DNA of 64,000 nt from Thelephora terrestris (Eukaryota; Basidiomycota; Agaricomycetes; Thelephorales; Thelephoraceae): positions 1,736,001 through 1,800,000 of the forward strand of contig WIUZ02000003.1 in the NCBI GenBank assembly GCA_015956445.1. Direction: 5' to 3'. The notes below the pieces were generated by a model. It saw only the letters and a program-made list of their open reading frames with translations. It had not been told where the DNA came from and made no database searches. How positions within the stretch are numbered: position 1 is the first letter of the stretch; every line of letters starts with the position of its first letter. Shown piece after piece: positions 16,262 through 58,449 of this stretch. A program made the position numbers and the translations under genes.

Positions 16262-18080
16262 CTAACAATGCGTTTTCACTGGACTGCTGCATTCCGGCTC
16301 CGAATGCGCGTCAAGTGGTATACTCGCTACCGCCTGGATTTCACCTCTTCGAAAACGGGAGAGCTCTACGTCCTCCAGGAGATCATGACTGGCCATAGAT
16401 GGATCCATGATGCCGTGTGGGTTTTGCCTCAACTCTGCCGCCGCTTTCCTCAACGATAGCATCGTCCGTGAGATCATAACAGAAAAATACCTGAAACTAG
16501 ACGTCAGCCGTGTTAATAAGAGAAAACGCGTCAAAGGACGTACGCGACAGGTCCGCTGATGGTAGTGGGGAAAAGTACGATGAGGGGTGATCTTATATAG
16601 GGTAGCTTGTAGGCGACTTACGGAGCTGGAAGAAGCTGTATATTTGGCTAGAGAGATACGAAATGGTCACAGTCAGCTGTAGTTCAGTGAGAGAAAGCGG
16701 CACACTCACTCTCCCAAAGTTCAGTGTCATCACTAACGCGAAGTGGGAGGAGAATATCAGTAGGAAGTACCACGTAGAATCTTCCGCGATGGTGTCCAGA
16801 ATTGTCGCAACCGTTTGATTTCGCGCCTTCGACCTTTCCACCCAGAGAATAATCAACGAGAACGCCAGGAAATCTGATTGATATGCGTTATGGGGTAAGA
16901 TCAGTACCGCTCGGTTTTCGGGATGATTCCGACCCACCAAACAAGAGGGAGGTGCTTGTATACGCAACTTCCAGAGTTCTGTCCCGGGAAAATACGCATA
17001 GATGGAATGCGTCGAGGGGTATCTGTGGGAGCACTTGGGCTAAGGGAGCACAATTGCGAGAAAACAAGCAACCGATCTGAATGAGAGTGGTTCATCTGAT
17101 GCAAAAGGCGATCCATACCTCCTCTCTGTCCCGACCGGATCGTCGCCCACAGCCCAAGCACGAACTGGGAGGCAGCAATGACCGCGAGACCAATCGTGGT
17201 TGGAAGGTTTTTCATCATCACGGCGTATATCCTGCGGCGAGATTCTCGGGAGTCAACCCAGAGCCACTGAAAAAAAGGAATCGCAAACCTGAGGGTCAAC
17301 ATCGCTTGTGCGAGAACGGTACAAAAGACAAACGCGAAGAGAGAGTACCACGCGGTTTTGTCGCATCTGATTCCGTGATTAGATCAGTGAGGTGATCACA
17401 CCCAGTGTTTATCAAGTGTGGCTCGTACACCTAGGGTACAATGGGAATCGCAACCTCCCATCAGCAAAAAAAAAATACGCCGCGTTGGATAAGGCTCACC
17501 GTCGCGTTGAAATTTGGAGAGTATGCAACTGTGATTAGGCAGGTGATAATCAATATTCCCGCAGAGTCCGTGCGGCGGGATGAAACACTGACTGCTGAGC
17601 TGCCAAAACTGCCAACTCATCGGAAAGTACCTAATCTGCAACCTTCAGTTAGAAGGGAACGACTTCGACCAGAGGAAGAGGCGCACGACAATGAAAAGCA
17701 AGGATGCTGTTCAAATTTCAGCAGATGGAGGGAGGCCTCTCAAGCGGTGCGCGCACCCCACGTTTTCCTTTCAAACCATACATATTCTATCTGCGGGGGA
17801 AAATCTTATCAGTACCGCAACCACAATGTGTTCGAAGAGTGATTTCAACATACCTCGTCGCCCACGGTCAAAAAATAGTCATAGAAAAGTACCATGCCAG
17901 TAGCCAAGGAATGATACTAAAACAGCGGACCATGGTTAGTACGGCTAGTGCGGCGGGTTTGAGGCAGCCACCTTATGCGAGGTACTGGAACGTGCTTTCA
18001 ATTTAACTATAGGTAAACGAGTGAGATTGGACCTACAGATCATGCCCGAGCTGAATAAGAGAGGCCAAGTCGGAGGACAT
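16262..18080 (-). CDS. DUF6533-type multi-pass membrane protein, copy C
   Basis: Starts MSSDLASLIQLGHD at the ATG complementary to 18078-18080. Exons in order read LFYDYFLTVGDE, IEYVWFERKTWG, LLFIVVRLFLW, IRYFPMSWQFWQL, CDKTAWYSLFAFVFCTVLAQ and YAVMMKNLPTTIGL. These are followed by DSTWYFLLIFSSHFALVMTL and VMISRTMLSLRKAA. The C-terminal tail is the longest of the array and ends at 16262. It is closest to copy B (same MMKNLP block and same FSSHFALVMTLNFGRV-like helix). All traced exons are open, with GT...AG ends. Confidence 0.74.
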
Positions 18081-21399: not shown

Positions 21400-21590
21400 C
21401 GTGACCTTCGGGAGGCTTGGAGAACTTGATGCCCCGGAAAATGGTTCCGGTAGTCGTTGGTCTCATGAGGGACCAAACGTACTGGGAAGAGCACTAGGCG
21501 GCCTTTCTGAACGAGGGCATGATCCGCGAAAACATCAACGGGATATACCTACAACCAGCCACCGGTCACTCGGAGGATGCTAACCGAAAA
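21400..21590 (-). pseudogene. Relic of a DUF6533 last exon
   Basis: On + the sequence reads GGCGGCCTTTCTGAACGAGG followed by CATGATCCGCG and ACGGGATATACCT. This parallels the block CTTTCCTCAACGAGAGCATT...CGGGAGATA found in the last exons of DUF6533 copies A-E. No upstream exons of the family were found to its right, where the P450 gene begins to end. It is therefore a stranded fragment, probably left after rearrangement. Confidence 0.5.
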
Positions 21591-41581: not shown

Positions 41582-41981
41582 GGACACACTTGCGTTTTCA
41601 TGGGAGTTCGGCTTGTCCAGGAGTGCGTTGCTGCTGGGGGTCCCAACTGCGACCATGTACCTTGGCGACTGCCCGTAGGGCTAGGTTAGACAATAAAGAT
41701 AAAACAGACAACCTTCAGGCAGACTCTGAGGTAAATGGTACACCCAACGACATACGTCTGGTCCAGGGGCATCCAAGCCATCACCTGCTTTCCCTCCTCC
41801 TCCCACCATCCCGGGCTCTCACTATCCGCCAAGCCATGTCTGCTCGAGATCATGGAGGATTCGTGATTTCCTTTCATTTCAATATAACGGCCGACTCACG
41901 TTCGCTTTCACAGCAAAATGGACGAAGGGAACGATTCGAATGGCAGCACGAAACGAATGCGATACGTTCCATCGCGGTTTT
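41582..41981. other. Left flank of the KDZ transposon
   Basis: Short spacer between copy F and the element. A frame starting MDEGNDSNGSTKRMRYVPSR at 41918 runs into the terminal repeat and ends there by chance. It could be the first exon of an interrupted gene, but no continuation was found on the right flank (51071 on). Confidence 0.35.
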
Positions 41982-42307
41982 CACCTCGTTCTCACGCAAT
42001 TGCCGCCTCCGTAGGGGTGCTACGGTGTAAGAGGGTGCACCCTAACGAGGCAAATTCCCGATCAAGCCTCCCACCAGCGGTTTCACCGCCAAAAACCCCC
42101 ATTATGGTATCCACCTTTTATCCTTTTTTGTAAAACGTTCCCAGTTACTGCAAGGTCCATAGAGCCGAACCACACGTGACACATTCTCTGGAATCACCCG
42201 CAAGAACGAACCAGTGGGACTTGCCGGCCGAGAGGGATAGAGGTCGGTGACGTAGCGCGTCAGATTCCAGTCGCGTTACAACGCACTGAGTGGGCTATAC
42301 ACGCGTA
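41982..42307 (+). repeat. Left terminal inverted repeat of the KDZ element
   Basis: Starts CACCTCGTTCTCACGCAATT and ends GGGCTATACACGCGTA. Its reverse complement recurs at 50744-51070 with scattered single-base differences and one more diverged patch near 42180-42200. Very long repeats of this kind are known for KDZ elements. Confidence 0.93.
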
Positions 42308-42642
42308 TTCATTAGATTATGCATTATTTTGCTTCGCTAGCATCTTAGATTAATATACATATGATCTAAAGCCCCCCACAAAGTTCACAAACCATTTGCC
42401 TCGTATTCGGCACTGAAATCCCCTCGGGTGTTTTGTTTTGTAGGCCCTCGTCTTTTTCTCATGCACTCAGACAGTTCCTACGTATTACCAACGGAAAGGA
42501 ATCGAAAGCACTGCTTGCATGAGCATCTGTGCTCGCTGTGCCATGTGATGATGGCGCCTTGCATCGATCGCGTGTTTTCTCACACCTAACCCCTCCCATT
42601 TTGACACGCTTTGACACGTCGCTCTTTCCCTCTCGTCCCCAC
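42308..42642. promoter_or_regulatory. Probable transposase promoter region
   Basis: 335 bp between the left repeat and the transposase start. AT-rich at first (TTAGATTATGCATTATTTTG), then a pyrimidine-rich part just before the start codon, as is common in fungal promoters. No specific site can be proven. Confidence 0.4.
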
Positions 42643-45600
42643 TATGCCCAGGTATGTGGTGAAGAGGTCTTATACGATTTCGCGTGCGGTGTACACTTCG
42701 CAGCCATCGGGATCAAGGTTCATTAGCAATGGGCCATCTGTACGACACGGTATGGCTGATATGGCTGCTGAGCGAGCATGGAGCGAAAGGAGGCACCTTG
42801 AGCAGATCTCAAGTACGTATCCTGCCGAACCGTAACAGTTCGGACACTGACTACGACCAGTGCTTACTCCGAGCGAGAAAAAAGCGATGGCGGACCTTGA
42901 AGGCAACCTGCCCGCTGATAGCCCTGATCAAGATGACGACGTGTCCGATGCGATTGACGTGGAACACCTACGAGATTGTACCAAAGGAGATGAAGCATTT
43001 GTTGAGGAGCTTCAAGAATCGCTGCGCCCATTGCAAGTTCTACCGTGCATGTGCGCTACTCCGCTGACTTTCTGTCCAGCACTAGATTCCGGCGCGATGA
43101 GCGGACTTGGAGGCACCGCCTCGATAACCTCCACCAGAGCTGGGAACCCCTCATTGACAGTATGGCAGACGCCTACCTTCGTTGGAAGTATCCGGACGAC
43201 CTCGACCCGAACAAATCCCTGTTAAATCCGAGCGAAACCAAGGATCCACTCCCTCCTTCACAATCCTCGCTCCCAACGAATGACTTCACAACAACAGCCG
43301 AGGTTGAGATCCTCGTCATCGATCTCTACACCTTATCAACGTCAGTCAAAGTTTCCTGTGCAGGGGATCAAACCACCGCATCGACACTCGCTGGTCTCGG
43401 ATTCATTGGGAATGCACCGTTCCGTCCCTCAGTTGCAGTATCCATCAAGACACTCGAACTTTATCGAGTACTACGTCGGCGAAAACCATCGTTTAGCGTT
43501 GAAGCGTTTGTCAAGGTTGTGTCTGACCTTTATATGGTATGCATTTTGTCCGTCATATGTCGCTTACACTCATTCCGTGATAGGTGCCATATCGCCCCAA
43601 ATACCGCCGCTGGTTTTCGAATGCATTTGACGCATATCTAGAAGTCATCAGGGTCGTTGACAAGCGTGTCAAGGTAGCCCTCGGCCATGATGGTCCCAAC
43701 TGGCGGGTACTGAATGCCTGCCCTGCATGCTCCTACGAGGTATGTGCCTGCTTGCATATCACTCTGACGCACGGTTAATCTTTTGCAGTTGGAAGATGAG
43801 CCCGACCTTCTATTTCGGCGGATGTTTGCTCTTGACGGCAATGACTCCTTGAAGAGAATCGCGAGAATTGGTTCTCGAGACGTTGGTGACACACGGTGCT
43901 TTATTGACAGTGACTATTACATTCCAGCTGAAGAGGTGAATGAATGGGCAAGGGACGCCGGATCAGCACTTTCAGCAGATGCGGCCAGTGACGACGAGGA
44001 CAATATTGAAGGCGACATCACGGAACGGGGCACAAATGGTGGCGCTGACCCTGGTCCTTGTGCCAACAATTGGAAGGCCGCACAATCGGACTCGAAGAAG
44101 CGGGTGTGGGGTATATTTGCAGAAACTGGCCTCTTTGCGAGTGCCTGCCGTCACGGCTTTATCTTATGGATTACGGATATGATCCGGAGTGGCGAACAGT
44201 AAGTTTTAATATTGATTGATCGACGGCGTCTCACTATTGTCTTATCTTTAACTAGGGCCAAGTATCCACTCGCGGTGACAGCTAGGGCTCTACGCACCCT
44301 TGGCCCTCGCCTATTGATTGGATATGACATCGGTTGTGTCTTCCAGAAGACGATTTCTTCAAGTACACTTGGAGCCCAGTTTGCCGAGTCAAAGTCTCGC
44401 TGTTGCGTCAACGCGTTTCACGGATACTCCCACAATTTTGCCTGCCAAACTCAAAACCACCCCAACATCATTGACGGAGTGGGGATCGAGGATCTCGAGA
44501 CAATGGAACGGATTTTCAGCTCATCCAATCAAGTTGCCGGTGTTACTCGATACGCATCAGCCTACCACCGCCGCGTATTCATTGATATGTTCTTCCAACA
44601 GTGGGACGATGACAAGTACCGGAACCTGGCTTCAATGCTGTTCAACAACTACCGGCAGGCACTGTCTATTATCGAGGACGAAGGGACTGCTGTTGAGGAA
44701 GCTATGCATGCGTTGGGGATTTCGTCGACTGATCTTGAGACTTGGCATCGCGAACAGGTTTCATTCTTTGAGACCGTTGGTGAAGAGTCGCCGTGGGATA
44801 TCCATGCAATGGCGTACGTCGAGCTCCTTCAGGAGCTCAATTCCACTGAGTAAGTCTTAATTACATAAGTCGACGGTTGTTGCTGATATCCCATAGGTCC
44901 CAGGCTGATGCTTCGTTGACGCGGTTCCTCAACGCCATTCCCACCGATTATCATTTCAGTCTTCCTAGTCAGGCCTTGGCAAAGTCATCGACATACACAT
45001 CCGACCTCTCGAAAACACGCCGTCTGGAAACCGAGCGACGCTATGCGCGTGAACGATACGACAGGGTCCTCCACCAGGTTCTCGAGCTCGAAGATCACAT
45101 GGGAATCGACAATCGCTGGACTCCAGTCACCCCGGAGTATGTCGAGACGGTTCGCTACATCTCTGAACGACGGTACCACCAAGCCCTCAACAACCTCCAA
45201 CGTCTTGTGACACAACGATTATTTGAGCTACACAGACTCAACTTGAGTGGCGTTGGTTGGTCGTTTACCTTCTCTATATCTTCTTGGGCTGAGATCAGGT
45301 CAGGTTACAAAGCCCGTACACATCTCGCAAAGTCCTTGCAAACGCGGTGCAAGGCAATTCGCAGCGCAACGGAGGCTTATAATCGTGCCGCACAGGCTCT
45401 CAACCCCCCTCGCCCACCGCTCGACTGGGCGCAGGTCTCACGATACAGCTTCTTGGAGGAGTTCAGTCTTTTGCGCAACACCCGACGTGACATCACCAAA
45501 GCACCGTGGGCCGATCCAGTCATTCGCGAAACCATCAAAAAGTTCTTTCGTGTTCGCCGTGCACGTGAAGAGATCGAGCGGTGCAACGTCGAGGTTCGCC

Positions 45601-45941
45601 GTCTCTTCACGTCCATCTATGATGAAACTCGTCGACAACACGCCACCCTGGAGGAACTCGCCAGACAGAATAGTCCCATCTTCGGAGCCGTGAAGCAACA
45701 TTCTACTCGCCGCGCACATGTGAACGCTCTACTCCTGGCCCAGATCCAGCAGGTCTTCAACCTCAATGGATTCACTGGTGACAGAACATTAGGGCACAGG
45801 AAGGGTTGTCAAGTTGTTCGAGAGGATGGAGAACTGGGTAGGCACGACCACGTAGATGACGACGAGGCAGAGGGAGAAGACGCAGACGACGTCGAGCATG
45901 ATCAAATCAACAGTATTCTAGATTTCGTTACAAGTTTGTAG
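42643..45941 (+). CDS. KDZ-family transposase with CxC zinc cluster
   Basis: Cuts and joins the element ends. Start ATG at 42643 (MPRYVVKRSYTISRAVYTSQ). Short introns follow each of the first exons. The N-terminal half has a cysteine cluster of the CxC type (LNACPACSYE). It is followed by LFALDGNDSLKRI-like sequence (here MFALDGNDSLKRI), CANNWKAA, and FAETGLFASACRHGFIL. The RNase-H-like core has LLIGYDIGCVFQ (likely first catalytic Asp), CVNAFHGYSHNFACQ, and LETMERIFSSSNQVAGVTRY (likely catalytic Glu). A long helical tail with an acidic end (HDHVDDDEAEGEDADD) closes the protein at TAG 45939-45941. The exons from 44256 on are large and open, and the whole chain is uninterrupted. About 950 residues, usual for the family. 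Confidence 0.9.
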
Positions 45942-47132
45942 GTGATACATTCAGTCCAAAATCTTGTCCGTGAACCGTATAATTGAGACATTGAGCCCGA
46001 TATTACAAGAGAATGAATGCTTTAATGTCTGAGGTTCAATAACTTGGGAGATGTCTCGTATCGGACAAACGTTAACATGAGCACCCTCGATATGCATGAT
46101 ATCATAGATACGGCTAAAAGCAAGCCTACACACCAACTCTATCTTGAGTAAGCACAAGTGGCATGCCACGAGAGGTCTGAGGATTTGATAATTAGTGTCG
46201 TGCCTTTATATGAAGCTGAAGATCATTGATTGGTGTTTTCGATCGGCGAGTCTGAGCAACCAGCAAAGTGAAATTAAGCGTCTCGATAATCTGTGAGTCG
46301 CTTCAATATATACCCTATATCTTACATGCTATATAATGCGAGGAGAGAATTGTATTCTATGTTAGATGAATATATGTAAGGTGACAAATATACGTATCTG
46401 ATTCGAAACAGATGTATCCGGTTTGAAGTAGACATATCTGCTTTAAAATCATTTCGTCAAAAAGATCTACTTGCCGCTATCTAGATATACGCCATACACC
46501 ATTTTAGCCAGATAATGTACTGTCCAGGTTCCACCAATGCGTGGCGGGGTTGATGTAGGCATTGTTGCAGAGTTTCCCAACGCCAGTAATGTGGAACTCG
46601 CTCTTGAATAAAACAGCCGTAGTGCAGCAATCGACTCGTTCGTGATATGTGAAGTGTCACTGACACCCGCGGTACCCAACACAACAGATAGGATTCCAAC
46701 AAGAACTTGGACATTCGTTCGCCCACAATAGACGTTAGAATCTTACAGATAGTCGTTCGTCATATATCATATTTAATGTTAGCTATCTACACCAACTATG
46801 TTGTCCACCGCGCGCGTTCATATCAGCGATTGATAATCACCTCTGGAGATATACCCAGAAGTACCCAGATCTCCATTCCTCGCTTACTAGCCAACCGAAG
46901 ATCGCCACCGCTCTGATAATTACTATGCCTAAACATCACCCTCTGCCCTCGAACTAGCTGAGGTGCACTATTGGTGATGTCGTGGCTTTTCCACCCCATC
47001 TTCCCCATTGTGGAATCGGGTTTGCCTATTCTACACCGCAACATCCCGGAGTACGTCGCCAACAATAAAAAGAATCGTTCCACCCGCTTTTCTCCCCTCT
47101 CCTCTTTGCTAACTACCACCACCACAGCAAGC
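45942..47132. other. AT-rich spacer inside the KDZ element
   Basis: 1.2 kb between transposase and first cargo gene. It has three degenerate 20-bp units at about 46392-46451 (CGTATCTGATTCGAAACAG, ATGTATCCGGTTTGAAGTAG, ACATATCTGCTTTAAAATC). Two open frames on - (46467-46682, 46823-47134) lack known motifs. The last part is probably the promoter of the cargo gene (pyrimidine-rich CCACCCGCTTTTCTCCCCTC). Confidence 0.45.
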
Positions 47133-48290
47133 ATGTGGGCAGTCCTCCGCGAAACGCAGGTGGAGACGATAGATCAGGCTTCACCGTGAGTAAAGTTATC
47201 TTCTGTCTTGCCCTGGGTTAACCGCTGTTCCACTAGACCCATGCTTCAGACCATAGGAAAGGGGGCGAGTCTGTTGCCACTGTACATCCAGTGCCGGTCG
47301 CTCGAGGACGTCGAAGACGTTCGCAGGATCCACGCTCCACTTGTGGAGCTCTGCGCTCGGTTCTCAAATGAGAAAAAGTTGGCACGCGCGATTTACCGAA
47401 CTCTTGATTGCTTGTCTATCATGAGTGACGTCACCCCGTGGTTCGCAATCCTCAATGGCCGTAGCTTCAGGGGTTTATCATTCTCGGCAGAGTTTGTCCC
47501 CTCTACTCTCTTGCAAGTGGTGTACTGACACACCCTAAGTCTCGTTGACCTACAGACTCGAGACCACCTATATCCATCATGGCGCAAGACGGACACATTC
47601 GAAGACGTGTTATTGGTCATGGCCCTCAAAGGGGAGAAATCTATGCTTCCTGAGATAAAAGCTCCATCCCCTTCGCTGTCATCCGTCACAACCGACCTCG
47701 ATCACCTCACTGTATCCTCGTTATCAATTCTCAGTGAACGTAGGTATTTTAAATGATGTTCAATTTCACAAACACTGATTGCCACGGCAGAGGAGCTAAG
47801 GATGTCGCCCCCGACCTCGGCTTGTGGGGGAAAGACCACACAGTTCTACGGTATGTTGGAACTTCTTACCTAGGGTGACTGTTGCTGATCGTAATCAGGT
47901 ACCACGCGCTCCAGCAACCTCGGCTCATCTTCCAAGAGCCCGCACCTTCGAAAAGAAGGACGGAACCCTACGTTTCGACCGCCGCCATCATTCACAGTTC
48001 AGAGTCGGGGCGCTCCTGCGAGACCCATCTACAAGTTTATCCGAAATATTGCAGGAACCGTTGGGACGATCACCGATAGATCGGGCGTGCTCTCGCATAT
48101 CACGGCGGAGGACCACAGCGTCCTAGGTCACACCCGTGCTATGTATCTCGACGCTCACGGCTATGGGGTCGTGGAGATCTCAAAGATTGTCTCAGCCTTT
48201 GATGCACCCACTATTGATGAGTTTATTGCACGTGCTGAAGGGTGTGGGATGGCGATTGTCGAGTTGGAGTGGTTCTGGGCCCTCGAATAA
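47133..48290 (+). CDS. KDZ cargo protein 1, unknown family
   Basis: Start MWAVLRETQVETIDQASP at 47133. GTGAGT...CTAG then joins an exon with MLQTIGKGASLLPLYIQCRS and VTPWFAILNGRSFRGLSFS. Further exons are TRDHLYPSWRKTDTFEDVLL and a short one ending TTQFYG. The last exon begins TTRSSNLGSSSKSPHLRK, a basic Ser/Pro linker, and continues into the compact C-terminal domain HITAEDHSVLGHTRAMYLDA. It ends AIVELEWFWALE at TAA 48288-48290. Every joined exon is in frame, so it should be expressed. I know no named family. The basic linker between two folded parts suggests a nuclear or nucleic-acid-associated protein, which is inference only. No catalytic motif is evident. Confidence 0.65.
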
Positions 48291-48586
48291 TTTTTGTACT
48301 CAACAAAATGTATCTCCATTTCTTTGAAATTTACGTCACATATTTCTTGGTATCACTACACGTGCATATGCCTGTCTGCGAGACAGAAACGACCCCAAAC
48401 CAAGAAGTTTCTTGTCTAAAGAGGGGTCGGTTAGTAGACGACGAGGAACATGCAATAAGGATATTGACTTCTAATTGAAGTAAAACATGCCTGTTGCTAA
48501 GAGCCTACCAACATATATCTGGTGACACGAAATGAGGGAGAAGACACCTTCGCCGACTGCTTACCCTCCTCCCAGCCCACACTGCC
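48291..48586. other. Spacer between the two cargo genes
   Basis: About 300 bp holding the end of cargo gene 1 and the promoter of cargo gene 2. Nothing else was recognised. Confidence 0.4.
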
Positions 48587-50465
48587 ATGGCTCCGCCCTC
48601 ACCACAGCCAGGATTGGACCCCGACTCCAGCACGATATCAAAAACGCGGGTGGTATCCAAGAGAGCCCCTAGGTTGGCCACAAACAAACCGTTCACACTA
48701 TGGCGCCAGAGATTCCAACGGCGTGCGCAAGGCAAGCGCGTTTTCACTGCTGGCGACAGACTCCTCCAGGCAAGAAAACGCGAGCAACACCGTCGCGACT
48801 ACCGCGACGCGCTCCGAGAGGCCCAGGGCAAGATCCAGGCACTTGCTCAAGGACTGAAGGAGCGCTTCGGCAAGTATAGTGTGGACCACTATTACAACGA
48901 GCTTGTCCACCGAGCACACAAATCACGGTCTACACGGGGGGTCAGTAGATGGAACGCATTCCAGAAGTTGGAACTGAGGCGTATAAAAGGTTTGCGGGTT
49001 GCACAATCATCGAGAACAACGCACCTTAAGCTGATTTGTCTTCAGAAGAAAACCCTGGTGTGGTGAACCTTACGGCGGTGACAAAGGAGATTAGTGCGCG
49101 TTGGCAGTCGCTATCCAAAGAGGACCGCATTCGCGTCACCGCCGGGTGTGTTGAGGAGATCAAGGAAGAACGGGAAGCCAAGAGCCTCGGAACGCACAAC
49201 GTCCCACTCAGGGCATTCTACGATGCAAGGGGCACATTGCAATCTGTTGAAAAAGAGGTAAGCAGCACGCACGTTATTAGATCATCAATCACAGATCACT
49301 CGTTCTCATGGAACTCCCACAGTTATCCCAACTACATGCGAGAACTGGATTCGAGTTCTTTCTCATCGCCTCCCGGTCCAAGACTACAGACTTCATGAAG
49401 CCGTTCATATATTACTCATCCGACGTCGTGAAGGGATTCATTGCCGACTCGTTCGGCCGGTCAATCGATGACTTCGCAGTTCAGATGGAGGCCTATGTGA
49501 TAACTGGGCTCAAAGGTATCATTGCCCCAGCCTCCGCCGGGTTCACGATCCGACCTGATCTTCTCTTGCAGGTGTCGCTATGAATTCCAAGAACAGAATA
49601 CTCGAGATCAAGAAGAAGACGACGTCGTTGATTCTTGAACAACTACGTAGGTGTATCTCGACTTGCAGTTTGCCCAAGGACTTCTGATGAACACGTCACC
49701 CCAGGAACTGTTACTGGGGCCAGAATCACGCGCATGGAATACGACCGGTTCGATGATCTCATCACTGAGAAATACGATGTCGTCGTGAAGAATTGGCCGC
49801 TCAAGAAGTTCTGCAACCCCAGCGGCGTTACCTCTAGCATCGAACTCAATACACTGTATAATTCGTGGAAATCTGGAGCAACTCGTTTTCAACGGCTTAC
49901 GGGAGAAGAAATGAAAGAATGGAAGAGCAACCGGTTCGCCTCTGCCATGGAACTGATGCCTCCTCCTCCCGCAGAGCTTGTTCCCGCACTCGCGTTACCA
50001 CAATCCTCAACCGAGATGATGCTGATCTCCGAACTGCCTTGTCAAGACCGTTTGGCCCTCGGTCCAACTCCCCCTTCTCACACCCTTGCAAGTGCACCAT
50101 TGGCACCCATCACCAACCTTGCCTCTGCGCCGGCGCCGATAGCCGTTCCATCCTTATCGCCACCAAACCCTGACACGATCACCATGATGATCCGTGCTGA
50201 TCCTACACTTCAGAACGTAGATCCAGCTCTCATCGCCATGGGGATCACGCAAAGCAATCAATGCCAAGTGACTGCGACGACAACTATGGCCCCTCCAATC
50301 GAACAGCCAACTCAACACATCTCCCATGCAAGTGGGTTAAAGCGGAGCTGGCAGGAGGTTGTTACACCCCTTTCTTTCAACACTCACATAGCCAAGAAGC
50401 CAAAGAGACAACGAAAAGGCAAGCACTCGCAAACCTCCCTGGCTGTGGGGAGCTCCGAGAATTGA
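48587..50465 (+). CDS. KDZ cargo protein 2, HMG-box protein
   Basis: Start MAPPSPQPGLDPDSSTISKT at 48587. A basic helical region (FTAGDRLLQARKREQHRRDY) precedes an HMG box: SRWNAFQKLELRRIK, an intron, EENPGVVNLTAVTKEISARW, then QSLSKEDRIRV. HMG boxes bend or bind DNA. Further exons read TGFEFFLIASRSKTTDFMKP and FIADSFGRSIDDFAVQMEAY, then ARITRMEYDRFDDLITEKYD and FCNPSGVTSSIELNTLYNSW. The C-terminal third is Pro/Ala/Thr-rich and disordered and ends with a nuclear-import-like KKPKRQRKGKHSQ. The stop is at 50463-50465. About 510 residues with five exons, all in frame. It may help package or target the element DNA (inference). The part after the HMG box has no named domain that I know. Confidence 0.72.
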
Positions 50466-50743
50466 TTGAAATGACCCGTCGTGGCGACCTCGTAGACAAC
50501 GCCTCTTAGAATTCTTGTGCCCGGTTACTATCGTCCGTTCTGTAGTACTCGTTATATGTGTTGACCGTGAATTTGTGATATGAATAAATGATATCTTGCC
50601 CTAATCACGAAGCCGGTGTGATCTTTGTTGATCACGAGTCGTGGTGGAAAAAACACTACTAATTCACACAGCGTATTGTTGTGGGGGGCTTTGGAAACGA
50701 GATTACACGTATATAATTCGCGGCGGTGCAATAATCTTGTATT

Positions 50744-51070
50744 TACGCGTGTATAGCCCACTCAGCGCGTTGTAACGCGACTGGAATCTGACGCGCTACG
50801 TCACTGGACCTCTATCCCTCTCGGCCGGCAAGTCCCACCGGTTCGTTCTTGTGGGTGGTTCTACAAAATGTATCACGTGTGGTTCGGCTCTATGGACCTT
50901 GCAGTAACCGGGAACATTTTACGAAAAGGGATAAAGGGTGGATACCATAATGGGGTTTTTTGGCGGTGAAACCGCTGGTGAGAGGCTTGATCAGGAATTT
51001 GCCTCGTTAGGGTGCACCCTCTTACACCGTAGCACCCCTACGGAGGCGGCAATTGCGTGAGAACGAGGTG
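50744..51070 (-). repeat. Right terminal inverted repeat of the KDZ element
   Basis: Reverse complement of 41982-42307, outer end ...GAGAACGAGGTG. The remaining spacer between cargo gene 2 and this repeat (50466-50743) shows no gene. Confidence 0.93.
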
Positions 51071-51566
51071 TCCCTTCCCTGCACCCAGTGACAGTAGTTT
51101 ATGAATTTCGATTCGATGGGCTTCTTTCCACACTGAATGCTCTAAGACCCAGGTTTTTGCCTACTGTCCGAGCGACGTGGGGTGCAACGCCTCGGCATCA
51201 ACCGCTTCGTAGGTTGACCTCTGGCAGGTCGCAAACGGTATCGCCAAACACCCGTGAATAATCCCGGGGCGCAGTCGCGCGGGACAAGAGGGTAATCGAA
51301 TCGGCTTTTAAGTGAGCCCAGAGTCCACTGAGCGTTAATTATTCCCTTCGACTTCCCGTCATCGTGTATCTCAGACGAGATGCCGAGCCCCGATGCCACC
51401 AAAAGCTACACGGTCTATCGAAAAACAACAAACCCCCAATCTATCCGCAACGAGACGATCCAAACGCCCACCCACTCACCCAAACCAAATTCTACCATCT
51501 GCACAAATACAAGATACCGCAAAAAAGTCCACGGTTCCCTATCACTTCAATTCATCTCTTTCGTTC
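51071..51566. other. Right flank of the KDZ element and 3' side of DOA1
   Basis: Nothing coding was recognised. Probably the DOA1 3' untranslated region and spacer. It does not continue any frame found at the left flank of the element. Confidence 0.4.
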
Positions 51567-54500
51567 TCACAACGTACTCAAGATTTCTTTGGCCACATTC
51601 ACAATCTTTCGTTTTTCAGCAGCCAGGTCCGCCGCCGATTGACCGGCCTTGGGAGTAACAGGCATCCTCTCGACGCCTTCAAGCGTCGATCTCGCCTGCG
51701 CGACCTCTTCGGCCGGCAACGGAGCGTTGAGCTGCTTGGCGGCGTAGAGCAAGTTCCCAAGAGCAACCAACGTTCGGTATACAGCTTCAGCGTCGTTCGG
51801 TTGATTGGCGATGCCCTAGTCAATCTCATGCGTCACGAACGTAAAAGTACGAGAAATGGAGGTGGTACACACCCGCAACGTCAAACCGAAAACCAGGGAT
51901 CGCAAAGCAGGTTCCGGCGACGAGCTCAGTGCCAAACAAGAGAAGCTAACGCCCAAGGGTCACCATATCGCACAGAACAATCGTAGGAAATCCACGTACT
52001 TGAGCAGGAGGGTCGAACAAACGATCCTTTGGGGCGACGTGAGCAACTCGTTCGGGGGAGGTTCCGCGAATATCTGTTTGGAAGCGGGGTGAGCGAGTTG
52101 CTCATCGCGATACTCTGCTTCAGATAGATGGATGAAGGAAAGCACAGGTACCTTCAAGGCCCACGTGATGTTCCCAAGTTTCGCGTTCTCTTGTAAGGCA
52201 TTCGCGACCGTTCTAAGGAGTAACAGAATATTCCTCTCCTTTGCTTTTGTCATCGGTGGAGTCCAATGCTCGTCCCAGTCTGATGCCCTCAATAGAGCAT
52301 CCATGAACCTATCGCCAAGTCCAGCGTTCGCGTGCAGTGATTGCGGGGCAAACGCCACGATTAACCGAGCGAGGTCGATGACTGTGTAACAAACGAATTG
52401 AAAGACCAGGTAGGAGAACGGGGAAGAAGCAATCACGCACGAGGGAAACGATGGATGGCCGGCCACCTATCCAAAACGTGAATCAACGCCTCAATATGGT
52501 TCTCGTTGGGCACGATCTGCCCCGAACCCTTCCGTCCTCCGTTCACAGCCGCCAGATAATCAAACATCTGGGTGAAAAGCGCTACCTCGTCCGGGTGCAG
52601 AGCCAAGGTAGAAGTCGACTGTTCGCTCGAGCCCTCAATTCGATCAGCAACCCAAGACATGCGGGGAAGCCACATACAATCTCCCTCTGAATCTCACTGT
52701 TCAGCTCCGTCAACTTCGTTCGCATCGCAGGAATATTGCACTGCTTGAATGTGATCGGCGATGTCTAAATTGGAAAAAGATTAGCTGATCACCACCTGAC
52801 ACGAAAAAAATCGAACGCACATGAGGGATGACTTTACCAGAGGCAGGGGTTGATGAAACGGGGCTAGACGGCGCGGGCCTAAATCCGGGAGAAGGTGTCG
52901 GTTGGTATCGATTAGCCCCAGTCAACGGGTCCGAGTATCCGCTTTGAGTGGGACCGGATTGGGGAAGTGACGGTTGGTACCTGGACCCTCCAGTGAAAGG
53001 ATCAGCACCGGTGTTCTGGCTCGGCGCGTTGCCACCGGCCGGCTGGTATCGTGATGCGCCTTCAAAAATGCAGGAAGCGTCAGTGTCACCTCAATACGGG
53101 TGCCTGATGAACCCATGCCTGTGTATGGGTCGTTGTATTGCCCCCCATCTGCGCCGAGAGAGACTCCGGTAGTGTTCTTTTCAATGAATCTGACGACTTC
53201 GTCCAGATAAGTCATCGGTAGTTCGTTGGCTTGTAGAAACCGTTGGGCGGCCGTCCACGGATTTTCTAAAACCGATCTCAGAGAAGGGCTTGGAGTGTGA
53301 GGCGTCCCAGCGGCGCACCTGAGGCGTTATATGGGAGTTTCAACGGAGGAGCACCTTCATGCACATCCACGTCGAACACATAATCCCACTCCTTGCCTTG
53401 ATACAGCTGCTTCCTCGTTGACCCAACGGCATCAACGACGGTCCCGATCTTGACCCATTGGTTCGAGGCGGAGTCCCACTGCACCCCACGTTAAGTTCAC
53501 TTCATGACTAGACAGATCTTGGGCTCTACCTGGTGTGCTTCGACGGCATCTCCATTCTTGACCATCTTCGTCTCGCCAGGCTTCCGACCTATTGCCCTCG
53601 TCAGCAACGAATGCAAAAATCTGGGGGGGATTAAACCACCCGCCTGAAACTTTGAGAGCCTCGAGTCCAGGAAGGTCCGACTTTTTCACGTCGCCAATTT
53701 GTTGAGAAGGCAACGCCTGGTTAGCAACCTGCTCATCGTAGACTTTGAGGTCCGCCTCTGGCAACCATCGTCCCTCCTCGACACTGAAGACCCGGACTAC
53801 GTGATCGCTGCAACCGCTCACGATGTCTCCGTTAGGAAGGGAAGAAACCGCCCACACAGAGACCGCGGGATGGGTAATAGTCTGGATGCATTCACCGTCT
53901 GTCCACGCATACCAGAATGGAAATCGCGGTCAAGTAAGGCACTCGGGGAAAAGGAAACGACGCACCTCGCCAAACGCGTACGGACCGGTCTTCTCCGCAG
54001 GAAACGATGTCACCGTTTGGTAAGATTGAAAGCCCGTAGATGAAAGAGGTATGGCCGGATAGGGAATAAACAAGGTCTCCTTCCAACGTCCAAACGTGTA
54101 TCTCGCTGTGTCAATCGGTGAATAAGATGCAGGGATGGGTAGCGATGAACTTGCCTATCGTTGGAACAGGATGCAAAGCCAATATCCGTTACAAGCGCAA
54201 GGCCCCGGACCGCATCTTTGTGCTCGGTAAACGTCCTAACGGCCTTGTGTTTCTTCCAGAGCTTAATGGTTTTATCCGCAGAACCTTCGTTACCGCAGTC
54301 AGTCAGATGAAGGCGGAAGATTTTCGATGGGTCCTAACCCGTTAGGAACTCTTCCCCGTTGATCGCTACAACGGCCAAAATCGACTGAGCGTGACCTCTC
54401 AAATCATATGCCAACTTGAAGCCCTTCCAGACCTTTGCCGTACTGTGGAGCCGAAATTAAGTAACGTCGACCGGTATTTCTTTCCAATGACGTACCTGTC

Positions 54501-58415: not shown

Positions 58416-58449
<34 letters not shown>

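Follow-up and report, generated by a model that had tools for sequence, protein, structure and literature searches.

A probable autonomous KDZ-superfamily transposon with long inverted ends and two putative accessory genes

The region 41982-51070 of the window (the whole stretch of DNA analyzed; 64,000 bases, 51.6% G+C, no N) is, in all likelihood, one autonomous KDZ-superfamily cut-and-paste DNA transposon with two putative accessory genes. In the window analysis three same-strand genes were enclosed by long inverted ends, and the inverted repeats (41982-42320 and 50731-51070) surrounded the KDZ transposase gene (42644-45941). A complete KDZ transposon with three whole genes had been proposed in the first-pass annotation. 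The KDZ assignment was borne out by the inverted repeats together with a full-length Pfam KDZ domain, and the three genes by splice models with open frames of 984 aa, 322 aa and 552 aa; completeness held for the ends and genes, but not for the target-site duplication, which was absent at the ends. Within the 64-kb window, tblastn and blastn revealed no further copy of either the genes or the ends. The specimen is new as far as seen and mostly ordinary, its kind (9-11 kb KDZ elements with long inverted repeats) being already published. Because its ends and genes can all be read, the element opens KDZ passengers beyond TET/JBP to study.

The left terminal inverted repeat (41982-42320, forward strand) starts CACCTCGTT, with weak similarity onward to 42381, and the right terminal inverted repeat (50731-51070, reverse strand) continues in weak similarity to 50679. 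Two pairs of pieces were reported, 41982-42245 with 50807-51070 (94%) and 42247-42320 with 50731-50804 (92%), which were merged by blastn into 340 columns at 93.2% identity; no others were reported anywhere in the 64-kb window with an exact seed of 14 and a minimum length of 40 nt. The gapped local alignment to 42381/50679 scored 571; among 200 pairs of pieces drawn at random from the window, the highest score was 26 (pairs less than 600 bp apart were set to 0). Of the 410 columns in this extended alignment, 356 match and 28 contain gaps; the other 26 are substitutions (19 transitions, 7 transversions). The arms begin and end at corresponding places, and the element termini read 5'-CACCTCGTT...AACGAGGTG-3', i.e. 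5'-CA..TG-3'. Matching inverse ends of about 326 bp had been annotated earlier; their coordinates stand, but the arms measure about 340 bp. Short repeats were present inside the arms.

CpG columns of the arms differed more often than other columns (8/57 and 10/272, respectively; P = 0.005). When same-kind substitutions were placed at random, the null mean was 4.9 CpG differences and at least 8 were obtained in 8.6% of 5000 trials; the AG/CT and CA/TG substitution classes in the arms looked alike, and CpG observed/expected was ~1.0 in the element and likewise in the flanks. Methylation (CpG) decay of the ends was dropped on these grounds. A terminal hairpin was also rejected, as the first 70 bases were barely better than shuffles (z = -1.33, with 22/200 as good).

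No target-site duplication was found directly at the repeat ends (3/8 and 2/7 flank bases alike), and a clean single insertion is therefore unsupported. We infer that a recognizable duplication was lost or never present, and that the element's arrival, or some rearrangement since, was not a simple event. It is unlikely that the copy is composite or rearranged, its ends stemming from two separate KDZ insertions or one flank having been removed by recombination with another copy, but this would account both for the missing duplication adjoining the ends and for the differences between the ends (26 positions and 28 gap columns of 410). Three open genes would hardly be expected of such a decayed composite, however, and the corresponding starts and stops of the arms also argue against it. 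Very unlikely is an element about 40 bp longer on each side, in which the inverted repeats are subterminal and the 8-mer CGATTCGA is the target-site duplication. This 8-mer forms a direct pair outside the element (41932-41939 and 51109-51116, both forward strand), a possible but unproven target-site duplication that sits 42 bp (left) and 38 bp (right) beyond the repeat ends and has a length, 8 bp, known for KDZ elements. An 8-mer was common to two random 50-bp flanks in 2.3% of 20000 trials, a figure that is flattering because the 8-mer search was made after the flanks were inspected. The outer 40 bp, moreover, are without an inverted match, and the repeats end sharply in CA..TG, which are the termini reported for Kyakuja in the excerpted text of PMC12730594; both speak against the longer element. 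When the flanks of the transposon bounded at 41982 and 51070 were joined across it, as a look for an interrupted host gene, six open stretches ran over the junction (145, 94, 90, 65, 57 and 33 aa). The right-flank ORF at 51339-51986 was without a Pfam match up to E = 0.01.

The transposase gene (42644-45941, forward strand) was modeled with 8 exons encoding 984 aa and no internal stop, and its introns were placed at 42813-42860, 43033-43079 (GC-AG), 43537-43583, 43740-43788, 44199-44255, 44850-44896 and 45256-45303. The KDZ (Kyakuja-Dileera-Zisupton) domain (residues 327-572) matched Pfam PF18758 over profile positions 1-217 of 217 (E = 3.1e-77), with a score of 259.6 bits vs. the cut-off of 26.6. 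D334 (DGNDSLKR), D479 (GYDIGC) and E536 (ETMER) are taken by us to be candidate catalytic-core residues. For intron 2, a donor at 43037 (GTTCTA) with a good acceptor was rejected because it shifts the frame; the GC-AG form (GCAAGT..CAG) was picked among the frame-keeping choices for its donor, a branch-like CTGAC and its ordinary length. A GC-AG intron with a GCAAGT donor is likely in this gene, as a judgement among alternatives.

For an N-terminal cysteine cluster, no CxC match up to E = 1 was obtained with the whole transposase (Pfam), and the only cysteines before the KDZ domain (residues 1-326) are at 96, 207, 312 and 315. In one raw ORF, CxC1 scored 14.3 bits (vs. 26.9) and CxC3 13.5 bits (vs. 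26.6), both below cut-off, and a faint kinship of the transposase ORF to CxC domains is possible. A GH95 match (E = 0.087) in a transposase ORF was put aside as chance. Searches for relatives covered two collections, viral contigs and genome contigs, which belong to a set of bacterial, archaeal, viral, plasmid and phage sequences with no fungal genomes among them. Against viral contigs, 653/984 residues of the transposase gave 3 pattern matches, none confirmed, and the KDZ core motif gave 0 matches; the single core motif match in genome contigs was attributed to chance (aligned over 11 residues, E = 0.29).

Splice models for all three genes were assembled from enumerated introns compatible with an open frame, and where an intron had alternatives, as several did, one was chosen. 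Freedom among intron choices makes an open path easier to obtain, so that the long open exons weigh more (gene 1: 457, 594 and 638 nt; gene 2: 392 nt; gene 3: 761 nt). The three spliced frames totaled 5583 nt of coding sequence including stops. A host codon score, trained on 5 Pfam-matching ORFs (1328 codons; one ORF below cut-off, introns left in), was best of six frames for the modeled frame over the whole gene in 3/3 genes, with small margins. Per exon, the modeled frame outscored the other two forward frames in 15/18 exons (exceptions: gene 1 exons 1 and 4, gene 2 exon 4). The exon joins are predictions, made partly by judgement. The short introns, together with the KDZ transposase and in line with the first-pass annotation, point to a fungal host, probably an agaricomycete.

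The similarity of the ends had earlier been read as a sign of youth, and this reading was not borne out. The ends of cut-and-paste DNA transposons are not copied from each other during insertion, nor made identical by it, so that their 7% difference is uninformative on the insertion date. A stop-codon estimate was made assuming 3.4% change per arm since insertion, the same change in the genes and no selection, with all substitutions equal and indels left out. Under that neutral change 7.6 stop codons were expected, and the probability of zero was 0.0005. As none was present, either the end difference predates the insertion or selection kept the genes; both alternatives fit a recently active element. 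Indirectly, then, the open frames argue better for recent activity than does the similarity of the ends.

The second gene (47133-48290, forward strand) lies 1.2 kb from the transposase gene and was modeled, as one choice among several, with 5 exons encoding 322 aa and introns at 47186-47236, 47517-47555 (39 nt, the least certain), 47740-47790 and 47851-47898. Searches with its protein found nothing in Pfam (up to E = 1) or among PDB sequences (up to E = 5), and the predicted structures of two of its exons were unusable (pLDDT 37.7 and 46.8). Most likely it serves the element in a further accessory or regulatory role.

The third gene (48587-50465, forward strand), 0.3 kb from the second, was likewise modeled as one choice among several, with 5 exons encoding 552 aa and introns at 48990-49030 (41 nt), 49258-49322, 49516-49571 and 49647-49704. 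Residues 135-169 were matched by 3 HMG models (E = 0.00037-0.057), all below their curated cut-offs (HMG_WDHD1, 20.8 bits vs. 51.6; HMG_box_2, 17.0 vs. 22.4; HMG_box, 14.3 vs. 25.4). A 95-aa piece alone was matched by the same three models, with HMG_box_2 at 20.2 bits vs. 22.4, and also weakly by the plant YABBY model (E = 0.17); among shuffles of this piece, 0/9 matched an HMG model. The shuffles and the agreement of three models on one stretch speak for the HMG-box protein of the first-pass annotation, but it fell below every curated cut-off, and the third gene may, with weak confidence, be said to encode an HMG-like protein. Neither the third gene nor its HMG part had a PDB sequence match. 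A DUF7206 match in a gene 3 ORF (E = 0.046) was put aside as chance, and the whole of gene 3 gave 3 pattern matches in viral contigs, none confirmed. Among the literature matches listed, which were excerpts, none described an HMG gene in a KDZ element, and in papers inspected for the term HMG it occurred solely among the references, a silence that proves little. In mushroom genomes, HMG-like and cysteine-poor KDZ proteins of a similar sort seem to be common.

It is rather unlikely, in our estimate, that genes 2 and 3 are merely genes of the host, trapped between the ends with no role in movement. Fungal KDZ elements with passenger genes are on record: in the excerpt of PMC12730594, Kyakuja and Zisupton elements of Agaricomycetes carry a TET/JBP dioxygenase, and fungal KDZ elements are said to often carry accessory genes (PMC12477816, excerpt). 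Gene 2, moreover, shows no link to DNA work. Against trapped host genes, both genes are oriented like the transposase, with gaps of 1.2 kb and 0.3 kb, and the HMG-like gene 3 would be an apt partner for a transposase. For the two genes as accessory parts of the transposon, a mechanism may be proposed. The transposase would bind the ~340-bp ends and bring them into a pair, and its RNase H-like DDE/D core, as expected from the family, would excise the element and insert it elsewhere. The HMG-like third protein might bind and bend DNA and so help to unite the two long ends or, alternatively, might aid expression of the transposase; the analogy for such a helper role comes from HMG proteins and from Sleeping Beauty. 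The product of gene 2 would have an accessory or regulatory part in the element. A bolder version, to which we give little credence, is that the N-terminal zinc cluster was lost in this KDZ lineage, and that a separate, element-encoded HMG-like bender and the second gene recognize and pair the long ends. If true, the three genes would together form a transposition module distinct from the TET-carrying KDZ elements. The absence of CxC at cut-off beside an HMG-like gene is the one feature that could be new. Were the HMG-like protein a conserved partner, the element would be a DNA transposon with its own DNA-bending helper, directly assayable; if it is not, the element is still a useful annotated fungal transposon specimen.

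The element was compared with known systems as described in excerpts of the cited sources. Cryptococcus neoformans KDZ1, KDZ2 and KDZ3 are 9.2-11 kb long, with inverted repeats of 139-241 bp, a CxC1 domain and target-site duplications of 4-8 bp; the excerpt, which does not describe their other genes, makes no mention of TET (PMC12810828). The present element resembles them in its KDZ transposase, its size (9.2-11 kb in Cryptococcus) and its long repeats (~340 bp here), but differs in having no recognizable target-site duplication and no CxC1 at cut-off. With the TET-carrying Kyakuja and Zisupton elements it shares a KDZ transposase and passenger genes, and with Kyakuja also the CA..TG termini. 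The Laccaria elements Kyakuja-1_LB and Kyakuja-2_LB lack inverted repeats and have CA..TG termini with 7-bp duplications, and Zisupton has 8-bp duplications (PMC12730594, as excerpted); unlike Kyakuja-1_LB and -2_LB, the present element has long inverted repeats and no 7-bp duplication at its ends. The 3 spliced proteins and the 9 raw ORFs of the element that were scanned gave no TET/JBP dioxygenase match up to E = 1. In Pleurotus, every intact KDZ element had a CxC2 cluster before it (PMC7641404, in the part of the text seen), unlike the transposase here, which is without a CxC domain at cut-off.

Two further systems offer analogies for a separate DNA-binding protein. The host HMG-box protein HMGB1 aids Sleeping Beauty. 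HMGXB4 is likewise a host factor of Sleeping Beauty (PMC10138897, excerpt). The putative likeness is that of an HMG-box protein aiding a DNA transposon, with the function here suggested by analogy; the HMG protein of Sleeping Beauty, however, is host-encoded, whereas the HMG-like protein here is element-encoded. Nuwa elements, of the Harbinger superfamily, encode a separate Myb/SANT DNA-binding protein (PMC12730594, excerpt), and resemble the present element, by analogy only, in combining a transposase with a separate element-encoded (here putative) DNA-binding protein, but they belong to a different superfamily and use a different DNA-binding fold.

Elsewhere in the window, Rfam and ARAGORN gave no matches. 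The ORF at 16901-17383 (reverse strand), the one scanned ORF that overlaps the repeats at 10942-35984, had no Pfam match. These repeats comprise at least 5 diverged copies of one gene-sized unit, with pieces ~60-80% identical and start spacings of ~2.3, 3.1, 15 and 2.9 kb. Part of a sixth copy lies at 21487; judged by sequence, the units are a tandem gene family. A run of 31 G at 58416-58446 is an unusual homopolymer or an assembly feature. At the left window edge (492-2905), host genes for a Sybindin-like protein and an inositol-pentakisphosphate 2-kinase were observed.
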